Shown here: one piece after another, positions 10,348 to 25,947 of the stretch
How the letters are laid out: every line of letters starts with the position of its first letter
How positions within the stretch are numbered: position 1 is the stretch's first letter
NCBI RefSeq assembly: GCF_900141825.1
Contig: NZ_FQYQ01000022.1
Location: forward strand, 1 to 41,431
DNA length: 41,431 nucleotides
Reading direction: 5' to 3'
Source of the DNA: Pseudobutyrivibrio xylanivorans DSM 14809
Lineage (GTDB): Bacteria; Bacillota; Clostridia; Lachnospirales; Lachnospiraceae
Program-made: the position numbers and the translations under genes
Notes under the pieces: model-generated
The model's database searches: none
What the model saw: only the letters and a program-made list of their open reading frames with translations
What the model was told of the DNA's origin: nothing

Positions 10348-11694
10348 TTATACTCCCAAACCAAGTGGTAATTCATTTATACATGGCTTCCATTCCTCCA
10401 AAGGATTTTCACCATACACAATACTTATATTCTTATATTGAAGTGAACCATTTTTCTTCATATAAGGGGCAATTCTAATGAATCTACCAGCCATATTAAA
10501 ACTATAAGAAATCTTTATCCATTTATTTGGTTCAACTGGATAATTCTTTTTATAAAAAATCTGCTCTTCTATAGAGTCTTTATGATTATATTGTTCTCTT
10601 TTATCAAAGGTTCTTAGGCAAAAAAATACACCATCTCCATCTATACTTTCCCAGTCCTCTGAACGGACTTCAAAAGAGATGGTTATCTTATTGTCATCGC
10701 TGCCATTAAATACTTCAAAGGGTTCAGACCAGATTTGCCAATTTTTAGCTTCGGTATAGTCCTTTTTGTTAATTGTTAGATAATGGTTATCGTTTTGGTG
10801 TATTATCTCCCAACCAGTATTTTTAGATTCCCAACCAGCAAATTCTCTACTAAAATCTCCGTTTTGTAAGAGTTGTAAGTTTAACAGTTTTCTAGTTCTA
10901 ACACTAATCTTATCTAAACATATATCCAATAGCTTCCATAAAAAATCACTATAGAAATCTGGCATCAAATGTAAATGATCTAATCCCCAAATATGACGAG
11001 GATTTCCAAAATATTCCTTATCACTTAGAACAATTACTTCAGTGTTATAATTCTCTTTGAACCAATTGTTACATTTTTCTAAGGCATTATTTATATTTTT
11101 AATAAACTCCACACTGTGATTTTCTTTTATAAGTCTAATCTCATCACTTGACTTATCGTGGTAGTAGGTTGCTAATCTAAAATCATTAAGCACTATAGTA
11201 GTATTTGGAATATACTTCTCACAATACTTCATAAATTCTTTTACTGAATTTTTCCATATAGGAAAGAATTCCTCAAAATTATTTCTTCCAGAATATCTCT
11301 TTCCAAAAGAAAGTTTTGACACGTAATTAGACTTTTCATACTTAAATAACTTATTTGAAATGTATGAATCCCCTAACTCTACAAAACCAAAATTAACGTC
11401 AGCATAAAAATCAATTATCAAAATATCTGGTTGCTTTACTGCTAACTCGTTCAGAAAACATTTATTTAAATCCTCATATAAGTGCTGACGTTCTATATAC
11501 TCAACTTTTTTTATATTTTCCTTATACTCTAAAGCATCATATTCAATAATTGGAGACATCAATGACGCAAATGACATTTGAAAATCATAACATGAGACAT
11601 TAAAGATGTCTTTATAATTTGGAGTAATACGTCTGTTAAATGCATCTCTAGACGCACACGCTCCAATAATGCCAACGTTAATTTTGTTTTTCAA
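10348..11694 (-). CDS. DUF6270-like protein with C-terminal carbohydrate-binding-like domain
   Basis: A 448-aa protein. The N-terminus GIIGACASRDAFNRR (about residues 8-22) matches the G-x-C-x-SRD opening of DUF6270, a family frequent in capsule loci with an SGNH-hydrolase-like look; the His pair in GLDHLHL (about 240) could be catalytic. After about residue 275 comes a beta-rich module (LLQNGDFSREFAGWESKNTG, then ISFEVRSEDWE and WIKISYSFNMAGRFIRIAPY) resembling CBM4/9-type carbohydrate-binding domains. No signal peptide is visible, so it probably acts in the cytoplasm on the growing polymer. The start is a TTG with GAGG 8 bases upstream. Function is not established. Confidence 0.6.
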   Translation of the reverse strand: MKNKINVGIIGACASRDAFNRRITPNYKDIFNVSCYDFQMSFASLMSPIIEYDALEYKENIKKVEYIERQHLYEDLNKCFLNELAVKQPDILIIDFYADVNFGFVELGDSYISNKLFKYEKSNYVSKLSFGKRYSGRNNFEEFFPIWKNSVKEFMKYCEKYIPNTTIVLNDFRLATYYHDKSSDEIRLIKENHSVEFIKNINNALEKCNNWFKENYNTEVIVLSDKEYFGNPRHIWGLDHLHLMPDFYSDFLWKLLDICLDKISVRTRKLLNLQLLQNGDFSREFAGWESKNTGWEIIHQNDNHYLTINKKDYTEAKNWQIWSEPFEVFNGSDDNKITISFEVRSEDWESIDGDGVFFCLRTFDKREQYNHKDSIEEQIFYKKNYPVEPNKWIKISYSFNMAGRFIRIAPYMKKNGSLQYKNISIVYGENPLEEWKPCINELPLGLGV

Positions 11695-11699
11695 TTTAT

Positions 11700-13082
11700 C
11701 TACCTCTTTATTTTATATTTCATCCAACCTTGCCCCATTTTTATAATAGTTTTAATCCCCACACGTCCTTCACTAGATGCTGCAATCATTTTTGAATAAT
11801 TGATTTCTTCCTGAACAACTTTAATAGTCTCTGGTTCAACATAAGGCTCAATATCGATTACCTCAGCAACCTCAGGCTTCTCCTCAACTTTTGGTGCACT
11901 TACACACTTAAGGTTAGGTTTGTTATTCTTTTTCTTTCTCTCTGTCTCAGTCTCAACGATTTTCTGGAACATTTGACCAATAGTGTTAATGTCATATTTC
12001 TTTGAGGTTTCATAAGCATTAGCACCTAACTCAAATCTTAGCTTATCATCAGACATTACTCGCTCTAAAGCTGCTGCAAAGCCTTCGATATCCTTTTTGT
12101 GAACCAATAATCCATCATATCCGTCTGTTATTATCTCTCTTGGTCCATCACAAGCAAAGGAAACGCATGGAAGTCCCATAGCAAAACCTTCAATGATTGT
12201 CATACCAAATGGCTCATAATTTGATGAACAAATATTGATGGAAGCCTCAGAATATCTTTCGTTCATCTTATCATTACCACTCTCCAGTACAACTCGGTTG
12301 CCTAAACCATGCTTCATAATTAATCTTACATAGTCTTTAGCAAGTGAACCTTCACCGTAGATTTTTAAAGTCCAATCTGGATATTTATCTGCGATAAGAG
12401 CAAAAGCTTCGATTAGCATATCATAACCCTTCTGATATGCATATCTTCCTGCTGCTACCATGATATGGCTATTCAGATCAGCTCTAAACTTTAATCTCTC
12501 TGTTCCATTTCCTAAAACATAGATTGGCAAATCTCCATGTATCTTTCTTTCGTATACATGTCTATTACGTTCTGTAAGGATAGTGAGTCCATCCAACTTT
12601 CCATATGACTCCCTAATAATCTTCTGAATCTCAGGTGAATGATCCGCATATGATTTATGCTCTTGACCAATTTTCAAAACAGAATCATTAACTAATTCTG
12701 TAGCCAACATATTAAATGATGGCATTGTGGTTACTAACACACCACCTTCAAGATTACATAAAAGTTCACGCATTTTCTTATCAGTATATGCGTTAAACAT
12801 AGGATATAAATCTTCACTTTTATCAATAAGTTCACTAGGAAGAGCTAATAACTCTTTATCTTCCTCAGAAAATTTAGCTCCACGTCTTGCATCCTGAATA
12901 ACTGTTATCTTTATCTTAGGATTAACTGGCAAAGTAGGTGTATCCTTTGTCTTTTTAATACTAATAATCTCAACATCATACTTTCCAGTATCATAAAAAT
13001 AATCTGCAAAATTAAAAATTGTTTTTACAGTACCGCCTATTCCGAAAGCATTGTATACCATAAATCTTATTTTAGTACTCAT
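11700..13082 (-). CDS. Glycosyltransferase family 4
   Basis: GT-B fold sugar transferase of family GT4, cytoplasmic. The N-terminal YNAFGIGGTVKTIFNFA is the acceptor-side glycine motif; the donor-side EX7E motif is in SNYEPFGMTIIEGFAMGLP, followed by CDGPREIITDG. After about residue 375 an unusual low-complexity, Glu/Val/Pro-rich tail leads to a basic C-terminus (WMKYKIKR) that may contact the membrane. A longer frame opens at a TTG (13106), but the ATG at 13082 has GAGGAA 8 bases upstream and overlaps the previous gene's stop by 11 bases, so translation is probably coupled. Donor and acceptor cannot be told from sequence. Confidence 0.88.
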   Translation of the reverse strand: MSTKIRFMVYNAFGIGGTVKTIFNFADYFYDTGKYDVEIISIKKTKDTPTLPVNPKIKITVIQDARRGAKFSEEDKELLALPSELIDKSEDLYPMFNAYTDKKMRELLCNLEGGVLVTTMPSFNMLATELVNDSVLKIGQEHKSYADHSPEIQKIIRESYGKLDGLTILTERNRHVYERKIHGDLPIYVLGNGTERLKFRADLNSHIMVAAGRYAYQKGYDMLIEAFALIADKYPDWTLKIYGEGSLAKDYVRLIMKHGLGNRVVLESGNDKMNERYSEASINICSSNYEPFGMTIIEGFAMGLPCVSFACDGPREIITDGYDGLLVHKKDIEGFAAALERVMSDDKLRFELGANAYETSKKYDINTIGQMFQKIVETETERKKKNNKPNLKCVSAPKVEEKPEVAEVIDIEPYVEPETIKVVQEEINYSKMIAASSEGRVGIKTIIKMGQGWMKYKIKR

Positions 13083-16000
13083 CAGCCATTTCCTCTCTAC
13101 ACTCAATTATACTGTCATAAATTCTCTTAGAATTATCTGTATCACAATAATCAAAATAGCGTTTTGCGTTTTTCTTATGTATATCTGTTAATCTAAAGTT
13201 AGTATTGATATTGTTGATCAACTCTTCCAAAAATGCCTCTGGTGTATATGTCACAACACCTGGAAGTTCTTTCTTCATATCAACATAGCTTCCACGATAC
13301 TTATTATATAATTCACTGTCAAACTGGAAAAATACAGCAGGTTTCTTAGAGTAAACTATATCAAAGATGATACTACTGTAATCTGTAGCAATCATACTGC
13401 ACTCTTTAACTCTGTCAGAAATTTTTACTTCATGCATATCTGTGATATGAATTACATCATTTTCAAACTTATCAAAAAGTGGCTTATACTTTTCAAATTC
13501 AATATGTAAACTGAATACCAATTTCTGACCAGCTTTTCTAAGGGACTTAATTAACTGCTTGTCAGATAAAACCTTGCTGTAATACAAGTAGAAATCTGAC
13601 TTTGCAAAAGTGCTCTCTGATTTTATCAGCCAGTCTCTCCAGGTAGGCATAACCCAGATATATTTACCGTCGTTTTTCTCACATACAGTCAACTTATCAT
13701 ATCTAGCCAAGCCTGTAGAAACCATTTCATCATCCCAGAATTGCGAATTATCAACTAATAATTCCTTTTCATTCTCTGATGAAACAATAAACTTTCGAAT
13801 ACTTCCGCCATATGACTTATTACTGATATCAAATATCTTCATACCAGCTATACCATGCTGTAAATAAATAATAGGCTTTCTAAACTTACCAGTTTTGTCA
13901 TGGTATAGAGAAGGCATAACATCTCTTACTCCATGCGATACGATGTAAAACTCTGCAAGTTCATCAAGATAAAGATGTCTTGTAGAATCGTAGAATACAA
14001 CATTATCCATGTATTCTGATAACGCCTCAAGATCTTCATTTTCTTCCTTAGTTACAAAATAAAACTCTGCATCAACTTCATCTTTATGCTTCATGCAATA
14101 CTCGAAAAATGCCAAACCATTATCTCTGGCTGAAAGACCAAGATTCTCTCCAATAAGCCAAATCTTCTTAGAATTTAAGGATTTCTCATCTGTTGCTTTC
14201 TGAACTATAGCTAAAGCCTCTTCTCTACGTTCATCATCTTCAAACAAAAGTAAATCCTCTACAGCAAAAGACATAATGTTATCAGTTTTATTTACACTAA
14301 TTTTCTTCTTTGTAGTTGACGATTTTATTGAAAATGCGCCATCAACCATCTCGATATAAGAAAGCATACCATTATCTAACTGAACACATGGTAAGAAGCT
14401 CTTCTTAGGAAGACTATTTATATCAACATAGTAAATATATTCATCCTCAACTAATAATTCACGGTTCATAACAATAGTTTCCTCAGAAACTTTATCCCTT
14501 AATACAACCGAGATGTTATTAACCTGATGATTTTCATCTTCATCAATCCAGTCAATTTTAAGGCAAAGTCTGTCTTTTTCATAAAGCCACATTCCCATAA
14601 ATTTAAACAGATTGCTATCTTCTGTTATACCAATGGAATATGATTTTGATACATGATTGCCCCATACTCTCTTATATTTTTTTGAAGTAACTCTTTCAAT
14701 ATGTGAGAAGCTCATAGTTTCTCTGTTATTTACAACCGGTCTGTTAAAATTGTTCTCAACCTTAACTTTAACGTCATTGTCAAAATATAGCTCTGGCTTT
14801 AAAACTATATTCTCCTCGCAATCAAAATACTTCTTAAGCTTTATACTTACGAGAACGTTATCCTTAGCTGCTGTAACTCGTTCTTCTATCTCCTCACCAG
14901 CATCTGTAACAACCATAACCTTATTAGGCTTTTCAAAATAAGGTTCCTTTTTCCATGATAATAGCATCGAAAGATTATTGTTCTTCACTTCAGTACTATC
15001 TACTTTCATCTTCAAAACGTTGTTACGTACGTTACACTTTAAATTGTTAGATGAATCTAAGTATAATAAGCAGCTATGTGCATAACCATTTACAAGTACA
15101 AAAGGATGTGGTGAAACTATATAATAATTCTCTTTAACCTGAGCAATTCTCTTTAATTTCAAATTGTGTCTTTCAACATCAACGCCATTTTCTACTTCAA
15201 CAAATAACTGTCTAACTCCAGGCTTGAAATCATTTTCAATGTTCTCCCAAGTCAAACATACTTCATAATAAATATATTTATCTGTCTCTTTATATACAGT
15301 AAAAGGAAGATTTGATTCGATATTCGTATTAACTCTTTGAATAATAAATCTTTTAACTCTACTATCATATGATTTTTTCTTAAATCCTAAAATAATACTT
15401 CTTCCATCATTAAAATTTTCAGAGTAAGTAAACATAATAATAGTGTTCACTCTCATATTGATTGTAGAATCATCTTTTTTACAAATGATTGCATTGATAT
15501 CTCTAGTAGGAAGTTCAACTGGACTACTAATTACATCTTTAGATAAGAAAATAGTATGTTCCTTTTTATTTCCATCTACAATAAACCAAGAAAAATTGGC
15601 ATCATTGTATTCATTTTTTCCAAGCTCATCCATTTCTGAAACAGCCAACTCATAGCTAAATCTGTCAGAAGAAATTTCCTCAGTATGGAAATAATATTTC
15701 TGCTTTGTCTTATTGTCACGCCACATTAAACAATATGCCGCTTCTTTCATTTTTTCACTATTCTTAACAATGCCTTCCGAAAAAGCTCCAGAAATTTTAA
15801 TAGCCTTCTTATCAACAGAAATTGAATCCACCATTACTTCCCAATGATCCAACTCTTTTTTCTCTTCTTCTCTCTTTATATCAAACGGATTATTGAGTTT
15901 TGGAGAAACTGAAATATTTTTAAAAGTAAATTCTAAACTGTTTTCAACTACAAATACACCTTTATTTTTATGTCCAAATGCCAATTCTGCCTGCTTTGCA

Positions 16001-16302
16001 TTCATAATAACAGGTTGTTCAACATACATATCACCTATACGATTTCTAACCCATAATCTACTTGGAATATCTTTATAATTGTTGTAGGTATCATACATAA
16101 TGCTTCCTACAAGATACTCGCCTTCGAAAGCTGTGGTGATTGCATATTTCTCATTATTTTTTCCAAAAAGCAAACCATCAAAATAATTGTCAAAATATAG
16201 CTCTCTAACCTCTGGTTGAGCCAAAAGAGATATCTTAAAACAAACCATTTGATTCTTTGCAAATACTTCTTCCAACCGATAAATATTCTCTGAGTAATTC
16301 AT
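13072..16302 (-). CDS. Giant CDP-glycerol-type glycerophosphotransferase
   Basis: A 1076-aa protein. The last third is a poly(glycerol/ribitol phosphate) transferase of the TagB/TagF family: IWLIGENLG, YLQHGIAGMK, YIWVMPTWRDWL, LVFSLHIEFEKY and ATDYSSIIFDIVYSKKPAVFF carry the family's His and Ser/Asp positions. Roughly the first 700 residues are beta-rich with no family I can name; they hold at least two similar-looking stretches of alternating strands. The enzyme probably adds polyol-phosphate units to a lipid-linked polymer on the inner face of the membrane. It is followed by a coupled GT4 gene. The large N-terminal part is unusual; TagF itself is nearer 750 aa. Confidence 0.8.
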   Translation of the reverse strand: MNYSENIYRLEEVFAKNQMVCFKISLLAQPEVRELYFDNYFDGLLFGKNNEKYAITTAFEGEYLVGSIMYDTYNNYKDIPSRLWVRNRIGDMYVEQPVIMNAKQAELAFGHKNKGVFVVENSLEFTFKNISVSPKLNNPFDIKREEEKKELDHWEVMVDSISVDKKAIKISGAFSEGIVKNSEKMKEAAYCLMWRDNKTKQKYYFHTEEISSDRFSYELAVSEMDELGKNEYNDANFSWFIVDGNKKEHTIFLSKDVISSPVELPTRDINAIICKKDDSTINMRVNTIIMFTYSENFNDGRSIILGFKKKSYDSRVKRFIIQRVNTNIESNLPFTVYKETDKYIYYEVCLTWENIENDFKPGVRQLFVEVENGVDVERHNLKLKRIAQVKENYYIVSPHPFVLVNGYAHSCLLYLDSSNNLKCNVRNNVLKMKVDSTEVKNNNLSMLLSWKKEPYFEKPNKVMVVTDAGEEIEERVTAAKDNVLVSIKLKKYFDCEENIVLKPELYFDNDVKVKVENNFNRPVVNNRETMSFSHIERVTSKKYKRVWGNHVSKSYSIGITEDSNLFKFMGMWLYEKDRLCLKIDWIDEDENHQVNNISVVLRDKVSEETIVMNRELLVEDEYIYYVDINSLPKKSFLPCVQLDNGMLSYIEMVDGAFSIKSSTTKKKISVNKTDNIMSFAVEDLLLFEDDERREEALAIVQKATDEKSLNSKKIWLIGENLGLSARDNGLAFFEYCMKHKDEVDAEFYFVTKEENEDLEALSEYMDNVVFYDSTRHLYLDELAEFYIVSHGVRDVMPSLYHDKTGKFRKPIIYLQHGIAGMKIFDISNKSYGGSIRKFIVSSENEKELLVDNSQFWDDEMVSTGLARYDKLTVCEKNDGKYIWVMPTWRDWLIKSESTFAKSDFYLYYSKVLSDKQLIKSLRKAGQKLVFSLHIEFEKYKPLFDKFENDVIHITDMHEVKISDRVKECSMIATDYSSIIFDIVYSKKPAVFFQFDSELYNKYRGSYVDMKKELPGVVTYTPEAFLEELINNINTNFRLTDIHKKNAKRYFDYCDTDNSKRIYDSIIECREEMADEY

Positions 16303-16317
16303 TCCAGTATTTCTCCC

Positions 16318-18171
16318 TTAATTGTTTATTATTTTTTCATATATTTTTTCACAAGCGTGCCCTTTTTCTGTATACACAGTTTTAATACGCTTTTTGTACT
16401 CTGCACCTGGATAGCACCAGTGCCTAATATATTTGCATATTTGATGAACCAAGTCTTCTTCATTTTTCACAACTGGTCCAAATCCATTTTCTTCATAATC
16501 AAAATACCCCTTTTTATAAGTATGACTATTAAAGAAATCCTCCGCATCATACTGATAATAAATTGTACTTTTGCCCAAATATGCAAATTCAAATTGTAAA
16601 CTACTATAATCTGAAATAAGTAACCTGGCTTTACTCAATACATTCTTATAGGAATAATCCTTTGAAAGAAGTATTACATCTGTATCCTTTACTATATCTT
16701 TCATATATTCTTCCATAAGTGGATGTGGTTTAAACGCAAGCTTACATCTATGTCGTTTACAATATTTTCTTAATTTTTCATTTTGAAAAATACTTCTTAA
16801 GCGCAAGTAATATTCGCTAGTTGTGATATCACAGGAGGGCATCCACTTCATTTCGTTTTTTGTAGCGTCCCATTCCTGATGCATCAAATTCATTCGCCAG
16901 GTCGGGGCAAACACAATCCATCTAGAATATTTATTTTTCAAAGTATCCATAACTGGTAATCCCGTTAACCATACCTTGCTTTCATCATAATAATATGGAT
17001 ACTCCAGTATTGAATTATATTCATCTAAGGTGCTGGTGATAAAACCCGTAAACTTCGTGTGAAATCTATTAAGAGTTTTGCTCATATCATCCTTGATAAC
17101 ACCATGCTGTAAAAAAACAATTTTTGCCTGATGATATAAGTCTCGATAAAATTCTGCATCTTCCCAAAAAGGATTTTCAACGAAACCATTGCATTGTGAA
17201 GAAATTATATAATCAGCTAACAAAACCAATAATAAATGTTCATCGCTATACAAAGGCACAGTTTTACCTATTTTTTCTAGTCTTGCATAATCTTCACAAG
17301 AGTCGTTAATAACAAAATATGAATCAATATTTTGCTTTGACTGAATATACCTAAAGAAAACCTCTCCATTGTCATCAGCTCTATTAGGTCTATCCATCAC
17401 TACCCAAATAGGTTTATTTTTCTCTTTTAATCGTTGGAAATATTGCTTACGAAGTTTTATAGCCTTTATGCTAGCTTCTGTCTTCAAAGCAGCTAACTCA
17501 GCTTGAAATTCTTCTTCTCTTGCCTCAATCTTATTCTCATCAGCTTTTTCAACGAATATTGATTTGCTGTCAGTACGAAACAAATAGTCACCTCTATGGC
17601 AATATTGCGTCTTGAAAGCATCGTTTATTGGGGCAAATCTATAGAAATTAATTCTATTAATGCTACAAACAGTCCCATTAACACAATTATAAAAATCGAT
17701 TTTTACTGGTTCTTCCTTTAATTGAATGGTTACTTTAAAAACGTCCCTTTTTTCAACAATACTTTCCCCTACAACCTGATCCATTTGGCAATCCGTAAAT
17801 TCACATTTCTGCTCGATGTTGTTTGCCATAACCATGAATTTATAGGAGTCATAGCGAGGCAGCATAGAAATACTACCTTCTATTTCTATTTCCGTGTTTT
17901 TAACTTCAATAAAGTGAATATACACTGGTAAATAGCTTATGTTAGCAACATTGAGATCATTAACAGAAATAACAACATCATTATCCCTGGCTGTTAATTT
18001 ATAATCCATGTGATGCTTAAGTCTCAAATAATAAATAATTTTTGGCATCTCTGCCATGCCAATACTATTTATTATTTGGCTATCTTCGTATTGTGATATT
18101 AGCTCGTGAACTTGTTCATCGGATATTTCAAAACGTTCATGTTTATTTACAATTTCAATTAAATTTTCCAT
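16318..18171 (-). CDS. CDP-glycerol-type glycerophosphotransferase
   Basis: Second polyol-phosphate transferase of the operon, 617 aa. The C-terminal part shows the family hallmarks: PIWVVMDRPNRADDNGE, VFLQHGVIKDDMSK, WIVFAPTWRMNL, LAFKPHPLMEEYM and LISDYSSLQFEFAYLGKSTIYYQYD. The first 220 residues are a divergent, beta-rich N-terminal domain. With the gene at 13072 it gives two enzymes of one family, as in teichoic-acid pathways where a primase (TagB-like) and a polymerase (TagF-like) cooperate; which is which cannot be decided here. It starts at an ATG 8 bases after the upstream permease gene; its ribosome site is weak, suggesting coupling. Confidence 0.85.
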   Translation of the reverse strand: MENLIEIVNKHERFEISDEQVHELISQYEDSQIINSIGMAEMPKIIYYLRLKHHMDYKLTARDNDVVISVNDLNVANISYLPVYIHFIEVKNTEIEIEGSISMLPRYDSYKFMVMANNIEQKCEFTDCQMDQVVGESIVEKRDVFKVTIQLKEEPVKIDFYNCVNGTVCSINRINFYRFAPINDAFKTQYCHRGDYLFRTDSKSIFVEKADENKIEAREEEFQAELAALKTEASIKAIKLRKQYFQRLKEKNKPIWVVMDRPNRADDNGEVFFRYIQSKQNIDSYFVINDSCEDYARLEKIGKTVPLYSDEHLLLVLLADYIISSQCNGFVENPFWEDAEFYRDLYHQAKIVFLQHGVIKDDMSKTLNRFHTKFTGFITSTLDEYNSILEYPYYYDESKVWLTGLPVMDTLKNKYSRWIVFAPTWRMNLMHQEWDATKNEMKWMPSCDITTSEYYLRLRSIFQNEKLRKYCKRHRCKLAFKPHPLMEEYMKDIVKDTDVILLSKDYSYKNVLSKARLLISDYSSLQFEFAYLGKSTIYYQYDAEDFFNSHTYKKGYFDYEENGFGPVVKNEEDLVHQICKYIRHWCYPGAEYKKRIKTVYTEKGHACEKIYEKIINN

Positions 18172-18179
18172 AACAACTT

Positions 18180-18947
18180 CTATAATCTAGATGCCAATAC
18201 ATTCTTATTTTTGTTGAAAACATAGGTCCCAAAGGAATATGAGCCTACCGCCCAAATAATCAATTTTAACCATGCTGTATAGAACGATGGCACTCCATAC
18301 ACCATACAATTTCTTGCCAGATATAAAGACAAGAAAACAGGATTATACGTAAGAATAAACTGCACATTTTCAGGGAAATGCTCAAGTGGTATGAACATAG
18401 CTGAAACAAATGGAAGCATAGACATCGCTAAGGAATATAAATAATCAATATCAGCAAATTTTACATATAACACTGCTAGTACCTTTCCAATTCCAATTAT
18501 CACCATAAATGTGAGAAGAAGAACTGGGAAAATAATTAAACATCTAATTGTTAATCGAATTTTGTAGTAATAGAACAGCGGCATAAGTGCGATTGAAGCA
18601 TAAAGTAAATCTTTAAACGCAGAGAAGACTTTCTGATATATAAATAATTCGAGTCTCCATTTTGTTCTGATAATCAATTTTTTATTTTCCACCAACGAAC
18701 GCATAGCACCTACAGTTGCAGTTCTATAAAACCCAACCATATTAACACCAGTGAATATAAAAATAGGATAATTCTCTATATCATGGGTAATAATATTGCA
18801 ATAGTAATTAGACATTAAAAGCATATAGAGTAAGGGACTTAATATATTCCATAAAAATCCTAAATTTGTTTCACTGACACGTTTCTTATGTTCTTTAAAA
18901 CTTATTTGACTTATAACAAAGTAATAATCACTAATTCTACTAATCAT
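18180..18947 (-). CDS. ABC-2 type polysaccharide exporter permease (second)
   Basis: A 255-aa integral membrane protein with about six hydrophobic helices, of the TagG/Wzm type. The N-terminal amphipathic segment and FKEHKKRVSETNLGFLWNILSPLLYM match the coupling region of this family (usually R-Y-x-x-S-x-LG-x-L-W). PFVSAMFIPLEHFPENVQ and YNPVFLSLYLARN are typical late motifs. It lies 10 bases after the other permease gene and directly before the glycerophosphotransferase. Two unlike permeases next to one ATPase suggest a heterodimeric exporter rather than the usual TagG homodimer. Confidence 0.87.
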   Translation of the reverse strand: MISRISDYYFVISQISFKEHKKRVSETNLGFLWNILSPLLYMLLMSNYYCNIITHDIENYPIFIFTGVNMVGFYRTATVGAMRSLVENKKLIIRTKWRLELFIYQKVFSAFKDLLYASIALMPLFYYYKIRLTIRCLIIFPVLLLTFMVIIGIGKVLAVLYVKFADIDYLYSLAMSMLPFVSAMFIPLEHFPENVQFILTYNPVFLSLYLARNCMVYGVPSFYTAWLKLIIWAVGSYSFGTYVFNKNKNVLASRL

Positions 18948-18957
18948 AATTCACACT

Positions 18958-19719
18958 CTATAGTTTCATAACTATGTCATTCTCTTTAATTCTAAAAACC
19001 AATATACCAACCGCTAAGGACACAACTGCCCAAATAACCATTCTTAATAATTCATCCACATTATATGTTCCATTTAAAATCGCATCTCTTGCAATATTTG
19101 GATATATGTAAAGCGGATTATACTTTGTATATACCTGGATATGTTCTGGATAACGTTCAATAGGTATTAATACAGCAATCATATGTACTAAAATAATAGA
19201 TAAATTTTTCCATAAAAATTTTATATCCCTATTAAAGACATATATGGTGGCAAAAATGTATGAAATTCCAGTAGTAAACATTAACTCAAACAGAATATCT
19301 ACAAAGAAAATCAAGATTGTCCATGTGATTTTAATTCTAAAAAAAAGGATGACTACAAAAATAGTGACGCATGAGAAAAGCAAATTTACAAATGCAGTAT
19401 ATACCCTGGATAATACAAATATTTCGCTTGGTAGCTTTGATTTCTGAAAGAGATTTCTATTATCTACAAACGCCGTCATAGAAGTGGTTGTAGATGTAAT
19501 GAACATAGTCCAAAGCGTGAAGCCAATAATATAATAAGCTGGATAAGAACTAATATTAAAAGTAAAACCACTAAAAACCAAGGTCATTACGCACATGTAT
19601 AGAAATGGTTGAAGAACACTCCAAAACACGCCCAACATACTTCTAGAATATTTTCTTTTAATTTCTCTTACAGTAAGCTCACGAATTACAAAAATATATT
19701 GCTTTAAACCATATTCCAT
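18958..19719 (-). CDS. ABC-2 type polysaccharide exporter permease (first)
   Basis: A 253-aa TagG/Wzm-like permease with about six hydrophobic helices. The coupling motif is canonical: REIKRKYSRSMLGVFWSVLQP. Late motifs LIPIERYPEHIQ and YNPLYIYPNIARDAIL correspond to those in the companion permease. It probably forms the membrane pore that moves the lipid-linked polymer outward, powered by the ATPase encoded just upstream; its ATG lies one base after that gene's stop codon. The two permeases are clearly paralogous but far from identical, so this is an old duplication or a heteromeric pair. Confidence 0.9.
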   Translation of the reverse strand: MEYGLKQYIFVIRELTVREIKRKYSRSMLGVFWSVLQPFLYMCVMTLVFSGFTFNISSYPAYYIIGFTLWTMFITSTTTSMTAFVDNRNLFQKSKLPSEIFVLSRVYTAFVNLLFSCVTIFVVILFFRIKITWTILIFFVDILFELMFTTGISYIFATIYVFNRDIKFLWKNLSIILVHMIAVLIPIERYPEHIQVYTKYNPLYIYPNIARDAILNGTYNVDELLRMVIWAVVSLAVGILVFRIKENDIVMKL

Positions 19720-19720
19720 A

Positions 19721-21346
19721 CTAAGACACCTCGCTAACCTGTGCCACTTCGTTTGATGTAGTCTCGTTCATATGCTGATATGCCTTACAAACCACCTCTG
19801 GCTTTCCAACCATTCTAAGCTTACCCTTTTCAATCCAAACAACCTTAGAACAATTTTCTTTAATTGTTGGCATACTATGACTAACCATTAGAACTGTGCT
19901 ACCACCATGAATCATTTCCTTAACTCGCTTTAAACTCTTCTTTCTGAAGAACTCGTCACCTACTGAAAGCACCTCATCAAGGATAAGGATTTCAGCAGCA
20001 TCTCCGGCTGTAGCTATAGCAAATCCAAGGCGGCTAACCATACCACTTGAATAGTTTTTAACTTTTTCATCCATGAAATCTTCAAGCTCTGCAAACTTTA
20101 CGATTTCATCGTAGTGCTCATCCAAGAATTTTCTTGAATATCCAATAATCGCACCATTTAAATAAACATTCTCTCGACCAGTAAGCTCCATATCAAAACC
20201 GGTGCCGAGTGTAAGAAGCTGAACCTTTTTACGATCAACCTTAACATCGCCTTCTGTAGGTCTAAGAACACCTGAAACAATCTTAAGAATTGTAGATTTA
20301 CCAGACCCATTTGTTCCAATAATTCCTACTACCTCACCCTTATAGACATCAAAACTAACATCATCAAGAGCATTGAATTCTCTGTGAGAAATATTTCTTT
20401 TTAGCAACTGTATAAAGTATTCTTTTATTCCAGAAACATTCTGTGTAGCAACCCTAAATCTCATGGTTACATTCTGAACAGAAATAACTGTTTCATTGCC
20501 TTCTAAATCGTCAGCATCATCTGCATCTTCCAATTCACTCAAATCCTGAATATCAAAAGAATTAAAATACTTGTTGCGACGTGAAGCCTTATTATCTTCT
20601 CGAATCTGTCTATTTCTTCTTCTCTTCTTCGAATGCTTCACTACCACAGCAGCAATAATTCCCATGATAGCTAAAAAAATGCATACTGTACCTACTATCA
20701 TTGGCACAATGCCAATTGTGGATTCAACAGTCTCTAAAAAATTTGTTTCTAATACCATTTCGTTTGAACTTTCACTTTCTTTTTGATCAACACTGTTTTG
20801 TGTTGAAACAACATCATTTACCGGTGAAACTCTGTTAGCTGCCGCTATGGCCTCAGTCTCCTCCAACTCAAGCTCTTCTGTCTCTTCTTCGGTCTCGCCG
20901 ACTGTATCTTCCCCCTCAATAAATACATTTACACTTTTTAATTCATCAAGTGATTGTCTGTTAGTACCATCTGCATTACAGGTATAACCATCCACAACTG
21001 AAATATAGCTGTTTCCACCTGAAAGTGTTTCAAATGAAAGCATATATTTTCTTGTTGAAGATAATCCGCTTCCCTCTAACGTAATAATGCCATCTTCCTC
21101 AGATTCAGCACCCTTAATGTAGCTCATGCGGTTGTTATCATATTTAAGTTCAATATGATAATCCTGGTTTCTATCTGTAGTGCTGACATATACACCTATA
21201 AAGAATTTTGAATCCTCTTCCTCGGTGTACTCATCTGAGCCAAAATTTACCTCTCCACCAATAGCGTATACATTTATTGAGTTGATTACTAAGAAGCACA
21301 TAAATATCAGCGTAGCTGCTAGTCTTCTAAATTTAAGTCTTGTCAT
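19721..21346 (-). CDS. ABC exporter ATPase fused to a secreted cohesin-like domain
   Basis: One 541-544-aa chain with three parts (numbering from the longer GTG form at 21355). A signal-like N-terminus (about residues 1-32) leads to a beta-rich domain (35-148) whose pattern DYHIELKYDNNRMSYIKG and GGNSYISVVDGYTC resembles cohesin-like extracellular modules. An acidic linker follows, then a membrane helix (215-239) with a strongly basic cytoplasmic flank (KHSKKRRRNR). Residues 288-530 are a TagH/Wzt-type ATPase: Walker A GTNGSGKST (347-355), signature YSSGMV (435-440), Walker B ILILDE (456-461), H-loop His493. Known TagH has an external part at the C-terminus; here it is at the N-terminus. It overlaps the upstream gene by 14 bases. 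The cohesin-like call is by pattern, moderately sure. Confidence 0.85.
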   Translation of the reverse strand: MTRLKFRRLAATLIFMCFLVINSINVYAIGGEVNFGSDEYTEEEDSKFFIGVYVSTTDRNQDYHIELKYDNNRMSYIKGAESEEDGIITLEGSGLSSTRKYMLSFETLSGGNSYISVVDGYTCNADGTNRQSLDELKSVNVFIEGEDTVGETEEETEELELEETEAIAAANRVSPVNDVVSTQNSVDQKESESSNEMVLETNFLETVESTIGIVPMIVGTVCIFLAIMGIIAAVVVKHSKKRRRNRQIREDNKASRRNKYFNSFDIQDLSELEDADDADDLEGNETVISVQNVTMRFRVATQNVSGIKEYFIQLLKRNISHREFNALDDVSFDVYKGEVVGIIGTNGSGKSTILKIVSGVLRPTEGDVKVDRKKVQLLTLGTGFDMELTGRENVYLNGAIIGYSRKFLDEHYDEIVKFAELEDFMDEKVKNYSSGMVSRLGFAIATAGDAAEILILDEVLSVGDEFFRKKSLKRVKEMIHGGSTVLMVSHSMPTIKENCSKVVWIEKGKLRMVGKPEVVCKAYQHMNETTSNEVAQVSEVS

Positions 21347-22679
21347 TTCTCTCACGCTCTCTTATCCAACGCTTTCTTTTGCTATACTGCAAATAATATT
21401 TGTAATGTCTGTATGATCTTAAGTGCTGTCTTATATTGGATGGCTTCGAATAAAGCATAACTGAGCCTTCATACCATCCTGAAATATTGACAACATATCT
21501 TCGTCCAAAAATCATTTCTCTCAGCTCAAGATAAACTCTTCTATTAAAGTGATTATCTTTTAAATCCTGTTCTGTCAGCTTTGCTGCCAAAAATGCATCA
21601 TCATAGTCGATTACATCATCTGAAAAATGCAGCTTTCCAAATACTTCTGCCTCCTCGTAGGATGGTGTCGACATAAACCTGAATAATGCGTTCTCGATTT
21701 TCTTCTGAGATACAGGATTATTGAACGATTTACATATTTCTTCAAAGCTACCTAATTTAGCAAATAACTCTGATTGGTAAGAACTAATAATGCTCTCCAA
21801 TTGATTCAAATATTCAATTTGTTTTGTTGAGACATCCGATAAAACTGGAACTGTCTTATCAGACTCTCGCCTATATTTTAATGTCATGCCGTGTGGTGCA
21901 GAAAAAATGCACTCATACAAGCAATTATTAAAAAACACCTTATTTCTGAGTCCGGATCTTGGTCCAAACAAAAATGAATGATAATATTTTTCCTCGGCTT
22001 GCGCCGGTATTTCATACAAACCGTAGTAATAGCCTTCCACAGGTTCCTCTACGCCCAAGCATTTTCGGAACGTATTTAAGCTAAGTTGGATTGAACCAAC
22101 CCAACCACTATCAACAATAGCTATTTTTTCTTTGTCTCCGAATCCACATTCTTTAAGATAATCCCGTGCAAATGTGAATTCTTTTTTAGAGTTATCAACC
22201 AGAGTATTTATAAACTCTGAATCCTCCTCTAAAAGGGTTCTTACTTCGGACAATCTATGTCTTGGTATTTGATCATCTTCTTTGATTTGAAGAAAATCAG
22301 CTATTTTTTCAACAAACTTTTTCCCCTGTTCTGGAGTAAGCCCAGAACGATTTAATACTTTGGTCGGAGTAACATCTACTCCCCCCAAAGTAATATATGC
22401 TAATGCCTGATTTAAATCTAAATGATAAAGCGGAATTCTAAGTGACAATCTTGAAACATACAGATACTTGCATTGAATATCCAGATTAAATTCTTTAACA
22501 TATTTCTCCGCAACCAGGTAATCTAAATAAGCGTCTCTCGCCAAAAAGAATAAAGTCTTTATTCCCTGTTTCTTTGCCTCAGTCAGAACATGTAAAACAA
22601 AACTGTTCAGCACCGGAGCTAAAACATTATTTCCCGTTTGGGAAATAATATCTTTTTCATCTATTCTCTCTATATCCAC
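21333..22679 (-). CDS. COG5610-like C-terminal-domain protein lacking the HAD domain
   Basis: A protein of about 448 aa related to the second half of the product of 8347-10347: TLFFLARDAYLDYL aligns with VMFLSRDGEI, KYLYVSRLSLRIPLY with CYAYISRLAAAKLS, and IAIVDSGWVGSIQL with VVVDIGWAGSGYL. The HAD phosphatase part is absent; the protein begins almost at the second domain. Function is unknown. The start is uncertain: the frame opens at a TTG (22754), an ATG at 22709 has no usable ribosome site, and a GTG at 22679 lies 9 bases after GAGGAG and 13 bases past the previous stop, which I prefer. It overlaps the ABC ATPase gene. Confidence 0.65.
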   Translation of the reverse strand: MDIERIDEKDIISQTGNNVLAPVLNSFVLHVLTEAKKQGIKTLFFLARDAYLDYLVAEKYVKEFNLDIQCKYLYVSRLSLRIPLYHLDLNQALAYITLGGVDVTPTKVLNRSGLTPEQGKKFVEKIADFLQIKEDDQIPRHRLSEVRTLLEEDSEFINTLVDNSKKEFTFARDYLKECGFGDKEKIAIVDSGWVGSIQLSLNTFRKCLGVEEPVEGYYYGLYEIPAQAEEKYYHSFLFGPRSGLRNKVFFNNCLYECIFSAPHGMTLKYRRESDKTVPVLSDVSTKQIEYLNQLESIISSYQSELFAKLGSFEEICKSFNNPVSQKKIENALFRFMSTPSYEEAEVFGKLHFSDDVIDYDDAFLAAKLTEQDLKDNHFNRRVYLELREMIFGRRYVVNISGWYEGSVMLYSKPSNIRQHLRSYRHYKYYLQYSKRKRWIRERERNDKT

Positions 22680-22692
22680 AAACAAAAACTCC

Positions 22693-23496
22693 TCAAGCCT
22701 GCGAGCCATTCCTGATATTAAATGCGATTTTATCAGGAACCATCCATACAGCAATAGGCTTTATTACATAGCCAATTTCACGCCATGGATTCAATCCCAT
22801 TTTCTTAAATCCATTCCATCTGATGGTGACCTCAGCCATCTGATCTGTTAATGTTCTTCGTTTATAACTATTTATAGTCTCTCTATAGTAAAGTAAATCT
22901 TCCTGAAGATTATAGCCTCTGATTCCATCAGCAGTAAGATTCATAAACAACTCGTAATCCTCTCCTCTGCGTGGTTTTTCTGGAGAACCATACGGATTAT
23001 CCATACTTAAAATGCTCTTTCTGAACATGATTGTAGGATGAGCGTATGGCTGGAACCTAAGGAAGTCCTTTTCACCTGGTTTCTTAGGATACTTTCTAGC
23101 ACCGTATACCCTGTCCTCATCATCGATAAGAAGCAAATTGCCGCCAACAAATCCGTAGTCAGGATGTTCCTCTAAGAATAAGAATTCCTTCTCAAGCCTT
23201 TCAGGAGTACTTATATCATCAGCATCCATTCTTGCCAGATATTTGCCCTGAGCCAATTCAACCATTTTGTTCAGGCCATATGCCAGTCCATGATGAATCT
23301 TCTCTCTGACATAAACTATTCTTGAATCTATCTTTCGATATTCATCAATGACCCTCTTAACATCTGTCGTGGAACCATCATCAAAAATGATGAGTTCAAA
23401 ATCATCGAAAGACTGATTTAAGATTGACTCAATAGCTTTTCTCAAATATGTATTTTCGCAATTATAAACCGGAAACATTACACTTACTGCAGGCAT
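22693..23496 (-). CDS. Glycosyltransferase family 2
   Basis: GT-A fold inverting transferase, 267 aa, cytoplasmic side. The opening VSVMFPVYNCENTYLRKAIESIL, IIFDDGS near residue 38, and the metal-binding DxD in ARMDADDISTPERL (about 89) are diagnostic. The late HPTIMFRKSIL and RRGEDYELFM segments match wall-polysaccharide transferases of the TuaG/EpsE kind. No membrane helix is seen. It overlaps the preceding GT4 gene by 35 bases and is followed closely by the COG5610-like gene, so translation is coupled. Sugar specificity is not predictable. Confidence 0.92.
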   Translation of the reverse strand: MPAVSVMFPVYNCENTYLRKAIESILNQSFDDFELIIFDDGSTTDVKRVIDEYRKIDSRIVYVREKIHHGLAYGLNKMVELAQGKYLARMDADDISTPERLEKEFLFLEEHPDYGFVGGNLLLIDDEDRVYGARKYPKKPGEKDFLRFQPYAHPTIMFRKSILSMDNPYGSPEKPRRGEDYELFMNLTADGIRGYNLQEDLLYYRETINSYKRRTLTDQMAEVTIRWNGFKKMGLNPWREIGYVIKPIAVWMVPDKIAFNIRNGSQA

Positions 23497-24628
23497 CTTC
23501 GTAAACCTTTCTCATCACTTTTTCTGATTCTGATTTTTCAAAGGATGTAACAGATTTTCTGATATTCTCTCTGTTATATCTTTCATGCTCTAGCTTATAA
23601 GAATACATACGCTGGATTGCTCTCGCATAAGCATCTACAGTGTCTTCACTAACAAGGAGACCATTTGTCTTTTCCTTGATGTATTCCTTAGAGCCTCTGT
23701 TACTAGAAGCTACAACTGGAAGACCTGTAAACATTGCCTCAAGAGCTGCCATTCCAAGCCCCTCTCTTATAGAAGGGAAAACCATAATGTCAGCTGCTTT
23801 TAAAAACTTTCTTATGTCTACCTCGTAGCCATAGAATCTGACATTAGCGTCTAAACCGTATTTCTTGACATATTTCTTTAATGCACGTTCCTGATTTCCG
23901 CTACCAATAATTCCGTAGAGAATATTTAACTCCTCTGGATTATTATCTTTGAAGTAACGAATAGTCTCGATAATCTTTTTCTGATTCTTGTTCTTTCTTA
24001 CTTCACCAACGCTGATTATGAAGAAATCTTCTTTTTTAATGCCAAGATTTTCGCGTTCCTTGATTTTTTCTTCTTCATCAGTAAGACAGTAATAATTTGA
24101 ATCTACTCCCTCGCCAGGTATGCGATAAACAGTATCAGCACACATGGTCTTGGCAGCATTTTCATCTTCATGATTGATTGTTACGATTGCATCAGTATTT
24201 CTACTAAGTAAATACTCTGCCAAATAATAAATACTATTGCGGAATTTAGACCCTCCATTGTAGAAATGGAAGCCATGGGCAGTATAAATTACATACACGT
24301 CCTTCAGACCAATGCAGGCAAGTCTTGTAACCATGCCTCCTGTAGGCGTGTGACAATGAATAATATTTATATTTTCCGTTTTAATGAGCCTTCTCAAGGC
24401 TACTGTGGCTTTTAAATTAGCTAAAATATCTGCTATAGACTGAGTGATTGGAATGTCGTGATAAAGGACACCTAACTGCTTTAAAACATCTTCATCATCT
24501 TCATAAACGATGTTTTTAGAATTAGATGCGTAATGAACCTCGATATTCATCCCTTCCAACAGCTCAACGTTTTGTCGCTCAAATTTCGACAAAAAGCCAT
24601 ATACAGACGAAACGATTAATGCTTTCAC
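23462..24628 (-). CDS. Glycosyltransferase family 4
   Basis: GT-B fold transferase of family GT4, 388 aa, similar in layout to EpsD/EpsF-type enzymes. N-terminal SSVYGFLSKFERQNVELL, IIHCHTPTGGMVTRLAC and YTAHGFHFYNG mark the acceptor domain; IPGEGVDSNYY, ISVGEVRKNKNQ and the EX7E segment PSIREGLGMAALEAMFTGLP mark the donor domain. It is the second gene of the operon, 14 bases after the LCP gene, and probably adds an early sugar to the lipid-linked precursor. The start is a GTG with GGAG 8 bases upstream. Confidence 0.92.
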   Translation of the reverse strand: MKALIVSSVYGFLSKFERQNVELLEGMNIEVHYASNSKNIVYEDDEDVLKQLGVLYHDIPITQSIADILANLKATVALRRLIKTENINIIHCHTPTGGMVTRLACIGLKDVYVIYTAHGFHFYNGGSKFRNSIYYLAEYLLSRNTDAIVTINHEDENAAKTMCADTVYRIPGEGVDSNYYCLTDEEEKIKERENLGIKKEDFFIISVGEVRKNKNQKKIIETIRYFKDNNPEELNILYGIIGSGNQERALKKYVKKYGLDANVRFYGYEVDIRKFLKAADIMVFPSIREGLGMAALEAMFTGLPVVASSNRGSKEYIKEKTNGLLVSEDTVDAYARAIQRMYSYKLEHERYNRENIRKSVTSFEKSESEKVMRKVYEDACSKCNVSGL

Positions 24629-24642
24629 AAATATTTCTCCCG

Positions 24643-25947
24643 TTATTCCTCGTCCAAAACTTCCTGTATTCTCTCTCTTGCGTTGTTAATATCTTCTTCG
24701 CTCGGATTCATAACATACGCCCTCTTGCCAAGAGAATACACACTTTGATGTGCCCCAGTTCCCCCAACACTTAACTTTTCAATATTCCATTCACCAGGAT
24801 TAGATAATTGATATGCAACCAAATCAGCTATCTCTCCTGTTGATATATCTGTGGCAAATGTGCCATCACATTCTTTTAAGATTTCTCCGTAATTCTTCAA
24901 AACACTTTTTGAAGTCATTTTCTGGACAACAGACTGAATGACATTCATCTGGTTCTCGCCTCGAACGAGATCTCCTCTAGGGAATGAATAACGTTCTCTG
25001 GCAAATGCCAGCGCTTGCAATCCCATCATGTGATTCTCGCCTTTACTGAAATGTCCAATGTTCTCTACGTCGAATTCATAGTCTGACCAAACGGTGATTC
25101 CACCCATGGCGTTAATCAAACCTTCGAAACCACTGAAATTAACCTTGAAATAGTGATCTATATCTATACCGTATAGATTCTCCATAGTCTCTTCTGACAC
25201 ATCTATTCCGTAGATTCCAGTGTGTGTAAGCTTATCCATAGCCCCGCCAGCTATAGATAATGGAACGTAATAATCTCTTGGTGTAGAAACAAGCAAAATA
25301 TGTTTTGTTTCTGGATTAACTGCAGCCAAAATGTTTACATCTGAGCGGCTAGGTACTGAGATATGTCCCCAAGTATCTTTTCCACTGATATAAACTACGA
25401 ATGGCTCCTCTGGAGTAATAACAACTGGGTTCTCAATAACCTTTTCAATACTAATCTCCTCTAATAATCGAAGCTGAACTCCAAGTCCCTCATCAACATC
25501 ATTTTCTTCGAGCATATTAATGTATGAAGTACTAAGAACCGCTCCGTCGCATTCCTCGTTTTTTAAACCTTCAATTAATTCTAACTGACTACTGTATGAG
25601 CTCAGATTAAATGTATAACTTTTTAATGCTTCAGACAGGTCGTCAGTGGTTATATCTTTTGCAAAACCAACGGTCTTGTTTTCCAAGCCTTTAATATCTT
25701 CTATCTTTGCATCTTCTAATACATATATTCCGTATGTGGTAATCTCTGTTGTCTGATTAGCTATGACTTTCAAAGCCCTCATGCTATGAACATACAGATA
25801 TATTCCTTCTATAATCGCAGCGATTGACACCAAAATAAGAAATACACCTAACACTTTAAACAAACGCTTTTTGCGCGATAATAAAAAAATACCTGTGATT
25901 ATAAGTATCACCAATAAAATAACTGGAAGTATAGTAATGCGTATCAT
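24643..25947 (-). CDS. LytR-CpsA-Psr (LCP) family wall polymer ligase
   Basis: Enzyme family that transfers lipid-linked wall polymers onto peptidoglycan outside the membrane. The 434 aa begin with two hydrophobic helices (about 3-24 and 32-53). Residues 60-180 form an extra domain resembling a solute-binding fold (GLENKTVGFAKD, LKNEECDGAVLSTSYINML). The LCP catalytic domain follows: SRSDVNILAAVNP, LLVSTPRDYYVPL, IDHYFKVNFSGFEGLINAMGGI and FARERYSFPRGDLVRGENQ, with the Arg and Asp residues that bind the polyprenyl pyrophosphate. It is the first gene of the polymer operon, fitting attachment of the product to the wall. Confidence 0.93.
   Translation of the reverse strand: MIRITILPVILLVILIITGIFLLSRKKRLFKVLGVFLILVSIAAIIEGIYLYVHSMRALKVIANQTTEITTYGIYVLEDAKIEDIKGLENKTVGFAKDITTDDLSEALKSYTFNLSSYSSQLELIEGLKNEECDGAVLSTSYINMLEENDVDEGLGVQLRLLEEISIEKVIENPVVITPEEPFVVYISGKDTWGHISVPSRSDVNILAAVNPETKHILLVSTPRDYYVPLSIAGGAMDKLTHTGIYGIDVSEETMENLYGIDIDHYFKVNFSGFEGLINAMGGITVWSDYEFDVENIGHFSKGENHMMGLQALAFARERYSFPRGDLVRGENQMNVIQSVVQKMTSKSVLKNYGEILKECDGTFATDISTGEIADLVAYQLSNPGEWNIEKLSVGGTGAHQSVYSLGKRAYVMNPSEEDINNARERIQEVLDEE

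Follow-up and report, generated by a model that had tools for sequence, protein, structure and literature searches.

The exporter locus

The window, a 41,431-nt stretch of contig NZ_FQYQ01000022.1 from Pseudobutyrivibrio xylanivorans DSM 14809, carries a teichoic-acid-like locus whose genes from 13072 to 25947 lie on the minus strand. Its exporter gene (19721..21346) encodes a cohesin-like ectodomain, a transmembrane (TM) helix and a TagH/Wzt-type ATPase. As originally predicted, these parts share one continuous frame; it occupies 19721–21355 on the minus strand (544 codons, from a GTG at 21355 to the end), and plus-strand frame 1 across this interval contains many stops. The ATG at 21346, giving 541 aa, is more likely the start than the GTG, because Met occurs there in all five closest fused relatives and the GTG is absent from some of them. 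Residue numbers follow the 544-codon frame.

The exporter gene is followed by genes for two ABC-2 permeases, TagG1 (18958..19719; PF01061, E 3.2e-11) and TagG2 (18180..18947; PF01061, E 5.8e-9), and then by genes for two CDP-glycerol glycerophosphotransferase-type enzymes. The first (16318..18171) matches PF04464 at E 7.3e-34 and the second (13072..16302) in its C-terminal part at E 9.5e-31; the first 700 of the 1076 residues of the latter are without a Pfam family at E up to 0.01. Since the tandem permease genes after the single ATPase gene (18180–19719) are distinct, a heterodimeric permease is suggested from sequence. Two permease genes also occur in loci L021, L023, L142, L145 and L283, and one is seen in the other loci with wide flanks. 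Among such loci, CDP-glycerol glycerophosphotransferases were rejected as a correlate of the ectodomain: they accompany two of the six fused exporters (the window and L283) and none of the 10 unfused ones, and are missing from the fused loci L021, L022, L023 and L284.

On the upstream side, a conserved protein with no family in Pfam or NCBIfam (21333..22754) overlaps the start of the exporter gene; its relatives adjoin an ATPase or permease in other loci. Then come a GT2 glycosyltransferase (22693..23496; PF00535), a GT4-type glycosyltransferase (23462..24628; PF00534) and an LCP glycopolymer ligase (24643..25947; PF03816, E 6.2e-36), a candidate partner of the exporter, which matches the NCBIfam CpsA-type model at E 1.1e-89, below the cut-off of that model. 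Elsewhere in the window, 8347–10347 encodes a 666-aa protein with no Pfam match and weak, below-cut-off HAD matches in NCBIfam; relatives of it stand beside the ATPase in several loci. A plasmid search gave no record, among the best 5000, that reaches 80% coverage of the query.

Architecture of the exporter protein

The protein begins with a putative signal peptide (residues 4–32; 21260..21346), a basic-hydrophobic stretch ending in VYA. It is followed by the cohesin-like beta domain (residues 33–150; 20906..21259) and, on the grounds of model and composition, by an acidic, disordered and presumably extracellular linker (residues 151–214; 20714..20905) with 18 D/E against 2 K/R over residues 151–212. 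A single TM helix recognized by hydropathy (residues ~215–240, or ~217–240 in a second reading; 20636..20713) leads into a predicted cytoplasmic linker (residues 241–286; 20498..20635) that begins HSKKRRRNRQ, with 7 K/R in the 15 residues after the helix. The TagH/Wzt-type nucleotide-binding domain (residues 287–533; 19757..20497) is delimited by Pfam, PDB relatives and the model. In the full-length AlphaFold model, a helix (2–24), a beta domain (34–147), a long helix (205–260) and the ATPase (287–533) are separated by low-confidence stretches at 155–215 and 259–286; the N-terminal beta domain is thus predicted as folded and as separate from the ATPase. Sequence and hydropathy agree on a signal-like stretch, one TM segment and a basic inner side, so that an N-out, single-pass layout is predicted. 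The signal-like N-terminus, the acidic linker, the membrane helix with its basic inner flank and the intact ATPase motifs named in the original prediction are all present.

A cohesin-like fold for the external part, which had been proposed by pattern reading, is borne out by modelling. The 118-residue domain is predicted with a pLDDT of 92.6, and cohesins lead both the Foldseek and the VIA lists of its structural matches, the best being 2vo8 (Clostridium perfringens) and 4dh2 (C. thermocellum); the model thus has the cohesin-type beta sandwich. Identity with 2vo8 is 14%. The window copy gives no match to Pfam PF00963 (Cohesin) at E up to 1, and 10 of the 19 domain members match this family, the best at 3e-6. 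Unlike these cohesins, the domain sits on a transporter and not on a scaffoldin or glycosidase.

The C-terminal half matches Pfam ABC_tran (E 3e-22), and over residues ~290–535 its PDB relatives are TagH (7dd0), TarH (6jbh) and Wzt-type chains. It contains GTNGSGKST (347), SSGM (436), ILILDE (456), SVGD (464) and VSHS (491), which we take to be Walker A, signature, Walker B, D-loop and H-loop, respectively. This complete motif set and the adjoining ABC-2 permeases in a polymer locus place the protein in the broad TagH/Wzt-type class. The best NCBIfam model is TagH (NF010066), and the ATPase is named TagH/Wzt-type rather than TagH because its 189.8 bits fall below the equivalog cut-off of 320. 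The ATPase stops at about residue 533 of 544, and both the C-terminal TM and SH3b-like domain of B. subtilis-like TagH and the C-terminal substrate-binding domain of Wzt type are absent, with ~11 residues past the ATPase in the model.

In passages of PMC11466899, where the B. subtilis ATPase is in places named TagG, the TagGH ATPase is given one TM helix and an external C-terminal domain with some homology to SH3b, and SH3b domains are said to bind wall polymers. The window protein resembles this TagH in its ATPase class, its ABC-2 permease partners, its teichoic-acid-like locus and its possession of a TM helix with an external domain. Unlike in B. subtilis, the ectodomain is cohesin-like rather than SH3b-like, precedes the ATPase behind a putative signal peptide (type I topology) instead of following it, and goes with two permease genes. 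The observation that the external part lies at the N-terminus here and at the C-terminus in known TagH therefore stands, as far as these passages describe the B. subtilis protein. ATPase class and permease type are shared with TarGH (Alicyclobacillus herbarius, S. aureus) and Wzm–Wzt, to judge from parts of PMC7078476, and Wzt can bear a C-terminal substrate-recognition domain, according to a portion of PMC9445017. The TagH and TarH chains among the PDB matches are 264–280 residues long and lack such an N-terminal extension, although some may be trimmed constructs.

Constraint and mosaic inheritance

The ectodomain is under constraint equal to that on the ATPase. Against five relatives, with dS saturated in several of the comparisons, dN/dS is 0.048–0.101 for the ectodomain (four relatives; the fifth is not computable), 0.046–0.106 for the ATPase and 0.17–0.39 for the TM helix and linkers.

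The locus of Pseudobutyrivibrio ruminis CF1b (L021) reveals a mosaic. Over residues 1–529 its exporter protein is 84% identical to that of the window, with 100% in the signal, 96.6% in the cohesin part and 81% in the ATPase. The permeases are 33 and 30% identical, the upstream LCP, glycosyltransferase and 21333 genes 84–94% and the GLF flank 98.7%. Synonymous difference ranges from 0.03 to 0.58 up to residue 255 and from 0.51 to 0.81 from residue 241 on, with a step from 0.145 (residues 211–255) to 0.676 (residues 241–285) that falls in the cytoplasmic linker; amino-acid-changing difference climbs there as well. It thus appears from sequence that the polymer-making cassette was swapped, and that one edge of the swapped segment falls within the exporter gene, separating anchor from motor. 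Synonymous differences upstream are uneven (0.37–0.54 in genes, 0.66 in parts of the 21333 gene), so a single exchange probably does not suffice. Over 8347–20600, the differences from L021 resemble a serotype-like exchange: the flanks are better conserved, and between them lie divergent ATPase, permease and synthesis genes.

These data bear on the idea that the ectodomain holds on to the polymer being exported, or to the linkage unit of that polymer, a role that may belong to the SH3b-like domain in B. subtilis TagH. A beta-sandwich fold would permit glycan binding, the external domain of the B. subtilis ATPase offers a parallel through its partial SH3b homology, and the early glycosyltransferases are conserved between the window and CF1b, so that the ligand could be a linkage unit common to both. 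However, the ectodomain remains nearly identical while the permeases and the downstream synthesis genes differ, its charge (24 D/E, 9 K/R) is unfavourable for a phosphate polymer and its best structural matches are cohesins. Because it stays constant while permease and polymer genes change, the ectodomain is unlikely to read the exported polymer, and polymer holding as a whole is an improbable, though the least improbable, of the alternative functions.

Stand-alone relatives and dockerins

The domain is widespread in the family, its profile matching at least 141 of 397 Lachnospiraceae genomes at E up to 1e-6. Among its carriers are stand-alone proteins composed, like the exporter, of a signal, a cohesin-like domain, a stalk and a TM helix, here with an acidic tail; unlike the exporter they have no ATPase, and most lie beside a putative wall-hydrolase or LCP gene. 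All domain hits at E up to 2e-9 that are not exporter-fused define 104 such regions, many of which end at contig ends. A putative wall-hydrolase gene lies directly upstream on the same strand in 56 of them, and 20 of these 56 hydrolases carry a dockerin; dockerin-bearing regions number 21 of 104 in all. Neither hydrolase nor dockerin was found in 25 control stretches, picked by offset from genomes of the same set. These same regions supplied both the seed and the iterations of the dockerin profile, with which Pfam agreed on nine hydrolases (three with and six without). An LCP gene is present in at least 31 of 104 regions versus one of 25 controls; in at least 30 it lies within 1.5 kb of the stand-alone gene, and in 26 of those <150 bases upstream on the same strand. 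The LCP counts are lower bounds, as the home-made profile missed the LCP of L136 seen by Pfam. A TagH-type ATPase accompanies the stand-alone gene in only two of the 104 regions, which tells against the docking role proposed below for the exporter.

The hydrolase family has SH3_3 and Cadherin-like domains in all eight members scanned and a weak Glucosaminidase match, under the cut-off, in two, and wall hydrolysis is thus a putative activity. Dockerin-bearing putative hydrolases adjoin the cohesin gene in, for example, L132, L133, L134, L137, L153 and L154, and such a pair of dockerin hydrolase and membrane-anchored cohesin could form a two-gene wall-hydrolase tether outside cellulosomes. In L141 (8489–10282; G444), a single protein combines TPR, leucine-rich repeats and cohesin-like and cadherin-like domains.

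In a domain tree of 123 rows, a 22-row group with support of 90 unites 17 of 18 ATPase-fused rows with a permease-fused one; the fused L075 lies outside. The tree was built by a quick method from few columns without bootstrap, with all rows retained and many forks unsupported, and its class GLUC denotes the hydrolase family anywhere in the region. Four stand-alone rows fall in this group, L135, L136, L140 and L152: L135 and L136 belong to capsule operons with Wzz, a kinase-like ATPase and an LCP, and L140 adjoins BacA. The other stand-alone rows lie elsewhere, those of LCP type mostly together.

Could the ectodomain then act as a functional cohesin that binds a surface protein with a dockerin? 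The superfamily probably binds dockerins, since 20 of the 56 adjoining putative hydrolases carry one, and the genome of the window holds one Dockerin_1 match (G000:C28:93308-93478, L275), in a subtilase-family surface protein that is the sole candidate found. The frame in question encodes 1425 aa with Peptidase_S8, PA and Big_2 domains. Nevertheless, Dockerin_1 occurs in only 7 of 18 genomes with an intact fusion, while G009, a relative without the ectodomain, has one, and the exporter-type cohesins sit on a different tree branch from the hydrolase type. The 7-of-18 count does not support the dockerin as general partner, and this function for the window protein is decidedly unlikely. A wall hydrolase of the stand-alone type was rejected as partner, a relative being found in two of the 18 genomes searched.

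Recurrence, losses and rearrangements

The N-terminal 237 residues have matches in 12 of 61 genomes, the own one included (E up to 0.01); of these, G030 and G033 lie outside the genus, and there the match is a stand-alone protein. With the ATPase as query, 11 of 29 genomes of the genus match at E up to 1e-85 and at least 87 of 397 genomes of the family at 1e-78; extensions were examined in the best 30 matches of the family search, and some lower-ranked matches have long frames. These two ATPase searches yielded 40 loci with ~1.5 kb of flank each. Cohesin-like domain, TM helix and ATPase share one frame in 18 of them, in 10 genera and with the window included, which answers the suggested search for the same fusion elsewhere in Lachnospiraceae. 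Among the rest, G010 has the halves in two frames, four ATPases retain a TM helix but no cohesin, and the other 17 ATPases lack both. A further fused case in an 11th genus, G691, has its frame cut by the locus end. A search of 344 genomes across the order gave matches in eight (E up to 1e-15), every one of them from the same family. A signal-like hydrophobic stretch precedes the domain in 17 of the 18 fused relatives. The exception is L082 (G358), where the preceding sequence lies in another frame; because the stretch is missing there, its ectodomain may not be exported.

In an ATPase tree of 42 rows, all 18 fused rows and G010 fall into one 37-row clade (support 100/99), within which at least eight changes between the fused and unfused states are needed, each either a gain or a loss; the domain is therefore often dispensable. 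The nearest ATPase relative of the window, G009 (94.2% over 242 residues), retains the cytoplasmic linker and an unchanged gene order and lacks signal, cohesin and TM helix, and its genome contains no match to the N-terminal part of the window protein. On sequence, it is read as a recent natural loss of the ectodomain. In G094 (L139:1100-2959), the same ectodomain and TM helix precede a permease, in a 620-aa frame with PF01061 at 378–578, and the ATPase is the neighbouring frame. The ATPase fusion and this permease fusion would be two routes to the same complex. A second ectodomain is common to L073, L139 and the stand-alone L140 (E 9.2e-8 and 1.5e-19) and is not detectable in the other stand-alone proteins.

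Such absences could mean that the ectodomain does little, with the TM anchor of the ATPase being what matters, or with the outer part cut and released. The four loci that keep a TM helix alone and the 17 that keep neither part accord with this, and so does G009, where signal, ectodomain and TM helix went together. Against it, a passenger would decay, and the ectodomain is constrained as tightly as the ATPase, with TM and linker sequences drifting; the prospects of this explanation are slim. An assembly or frame artefact joining two genes can be dismissed in the face of 18 intact fusions in 10 genera. Among the 40 loci with their ~1.5 kb flanks, the domain profile detected a separate cohesin gene upstream only in G010; the break between its two frames coincides with the beginning of the TM segment, where a natural boundary between genes would not be expected, and reads as a frameshift. 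Because it recurs in 18 of 40 loci (10 genera) and its domain is constrained, the fused architecture is real and beyond chance.

Proposed function of the ectodomain

It is tempting to propose that the ectodomain docks an extracytoplasmic wall-assembly protein, with the LCP ligase as first candidate, on the type I ATPase subunit of a TagGH-type exporter. The probability of this reading is put at about one-half, on the favourable side. The protein would be the membrane-anchored ATPase subunit of an ABC-2 wall-glycopolymer exporter. After cleavage of the signal peptide, the cohesin-fold domain would lie outside on a flexible acidic stalk, coupled through the TM helix and the basic linker to the ATPase, which would power the two TagG-like permeases. 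ATPases of this class act as pairs, and for this reason two ectodomains may flank the polymer exit. There they would dock a wall-assembly protein whose gene lies in the constant portion of this locus or elsewhere in the cell. If this were the LCP ligase, the emerging lipid-linked polymer would be passed straight to attachment. Sequence and prediction support the architecture, the fold, its conservation and constraint, and the modular inheritance; topology, pairing, docking and the choice of partner are inferences.

The LCP ligase of the same locus appears to be the leading candidate, and division or other wall proteins are possible. Among loci with wide flanks, an LCP gene is found in five of six fused ones (the window, L021, L022, L023 and L283), with none within 4 kb upstream in L284, and in 4 of 10 unfused ones (L142, L144, L145 and L149); the association in these loci is mild at best. 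The LCP does not depend on the ectodomain, since it stays in G009, which lacks it, and in L144 and L145, which have the TM helix only. The ectodomain probably acts as a docking receptor, and the genes of its relatives accompany those of wall enzymes. For the tethering of such exporters there is a parallel in S. aureus: TarG is a binding target of GpsB, which has been proposed to recruit the exporter to the septum, as set out in parts of PMC9241681.

Implications for wall assembly in Lachnospiraceae

A TagGH exporter with an external ATPase domain is known, with the domain at the other end and of another fold (passages of PMC11466899). Parts of a cellulosome survey (PMC11557425) note single-cohesin TM proteins of unclear partner, and the survey does not contain the term ABC transporter. 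The cohesin–ATPase fusion appears unreported in the open-access literature searched (titles and abstract starts), where no cohesin on a teichoic-acid-type exporter was found.

More broadly, and tentatively, Lachnospiraceae might use membrane-anchored cohesin-like receptors as a scaffold for wall assembly, with a hydrolase branch that works partly through dockerins, an LCP branch and a branch built into the exporter, on the ATPase and once on the permease. Export and attachment would then form one machine, of which the polymer-making half could be swapped by recombination and the docking half stay constant; this wider scheme is more doubtful than the docking proposal itself. To our knowledge, the handover of exported wall polymers to LCP ligases is poorly understood. 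These gut bacteria offer directly testable material: an exporter that carries its own putative docking domain on the outside, a close relative from which the domain has been lost, and a genome in which it sits on the permease. They point to cohesin-type scaffolding for cell-wall building, outside cellulosomes, in which the ectodomain may hold a wall-building partner where the polymer emerges.
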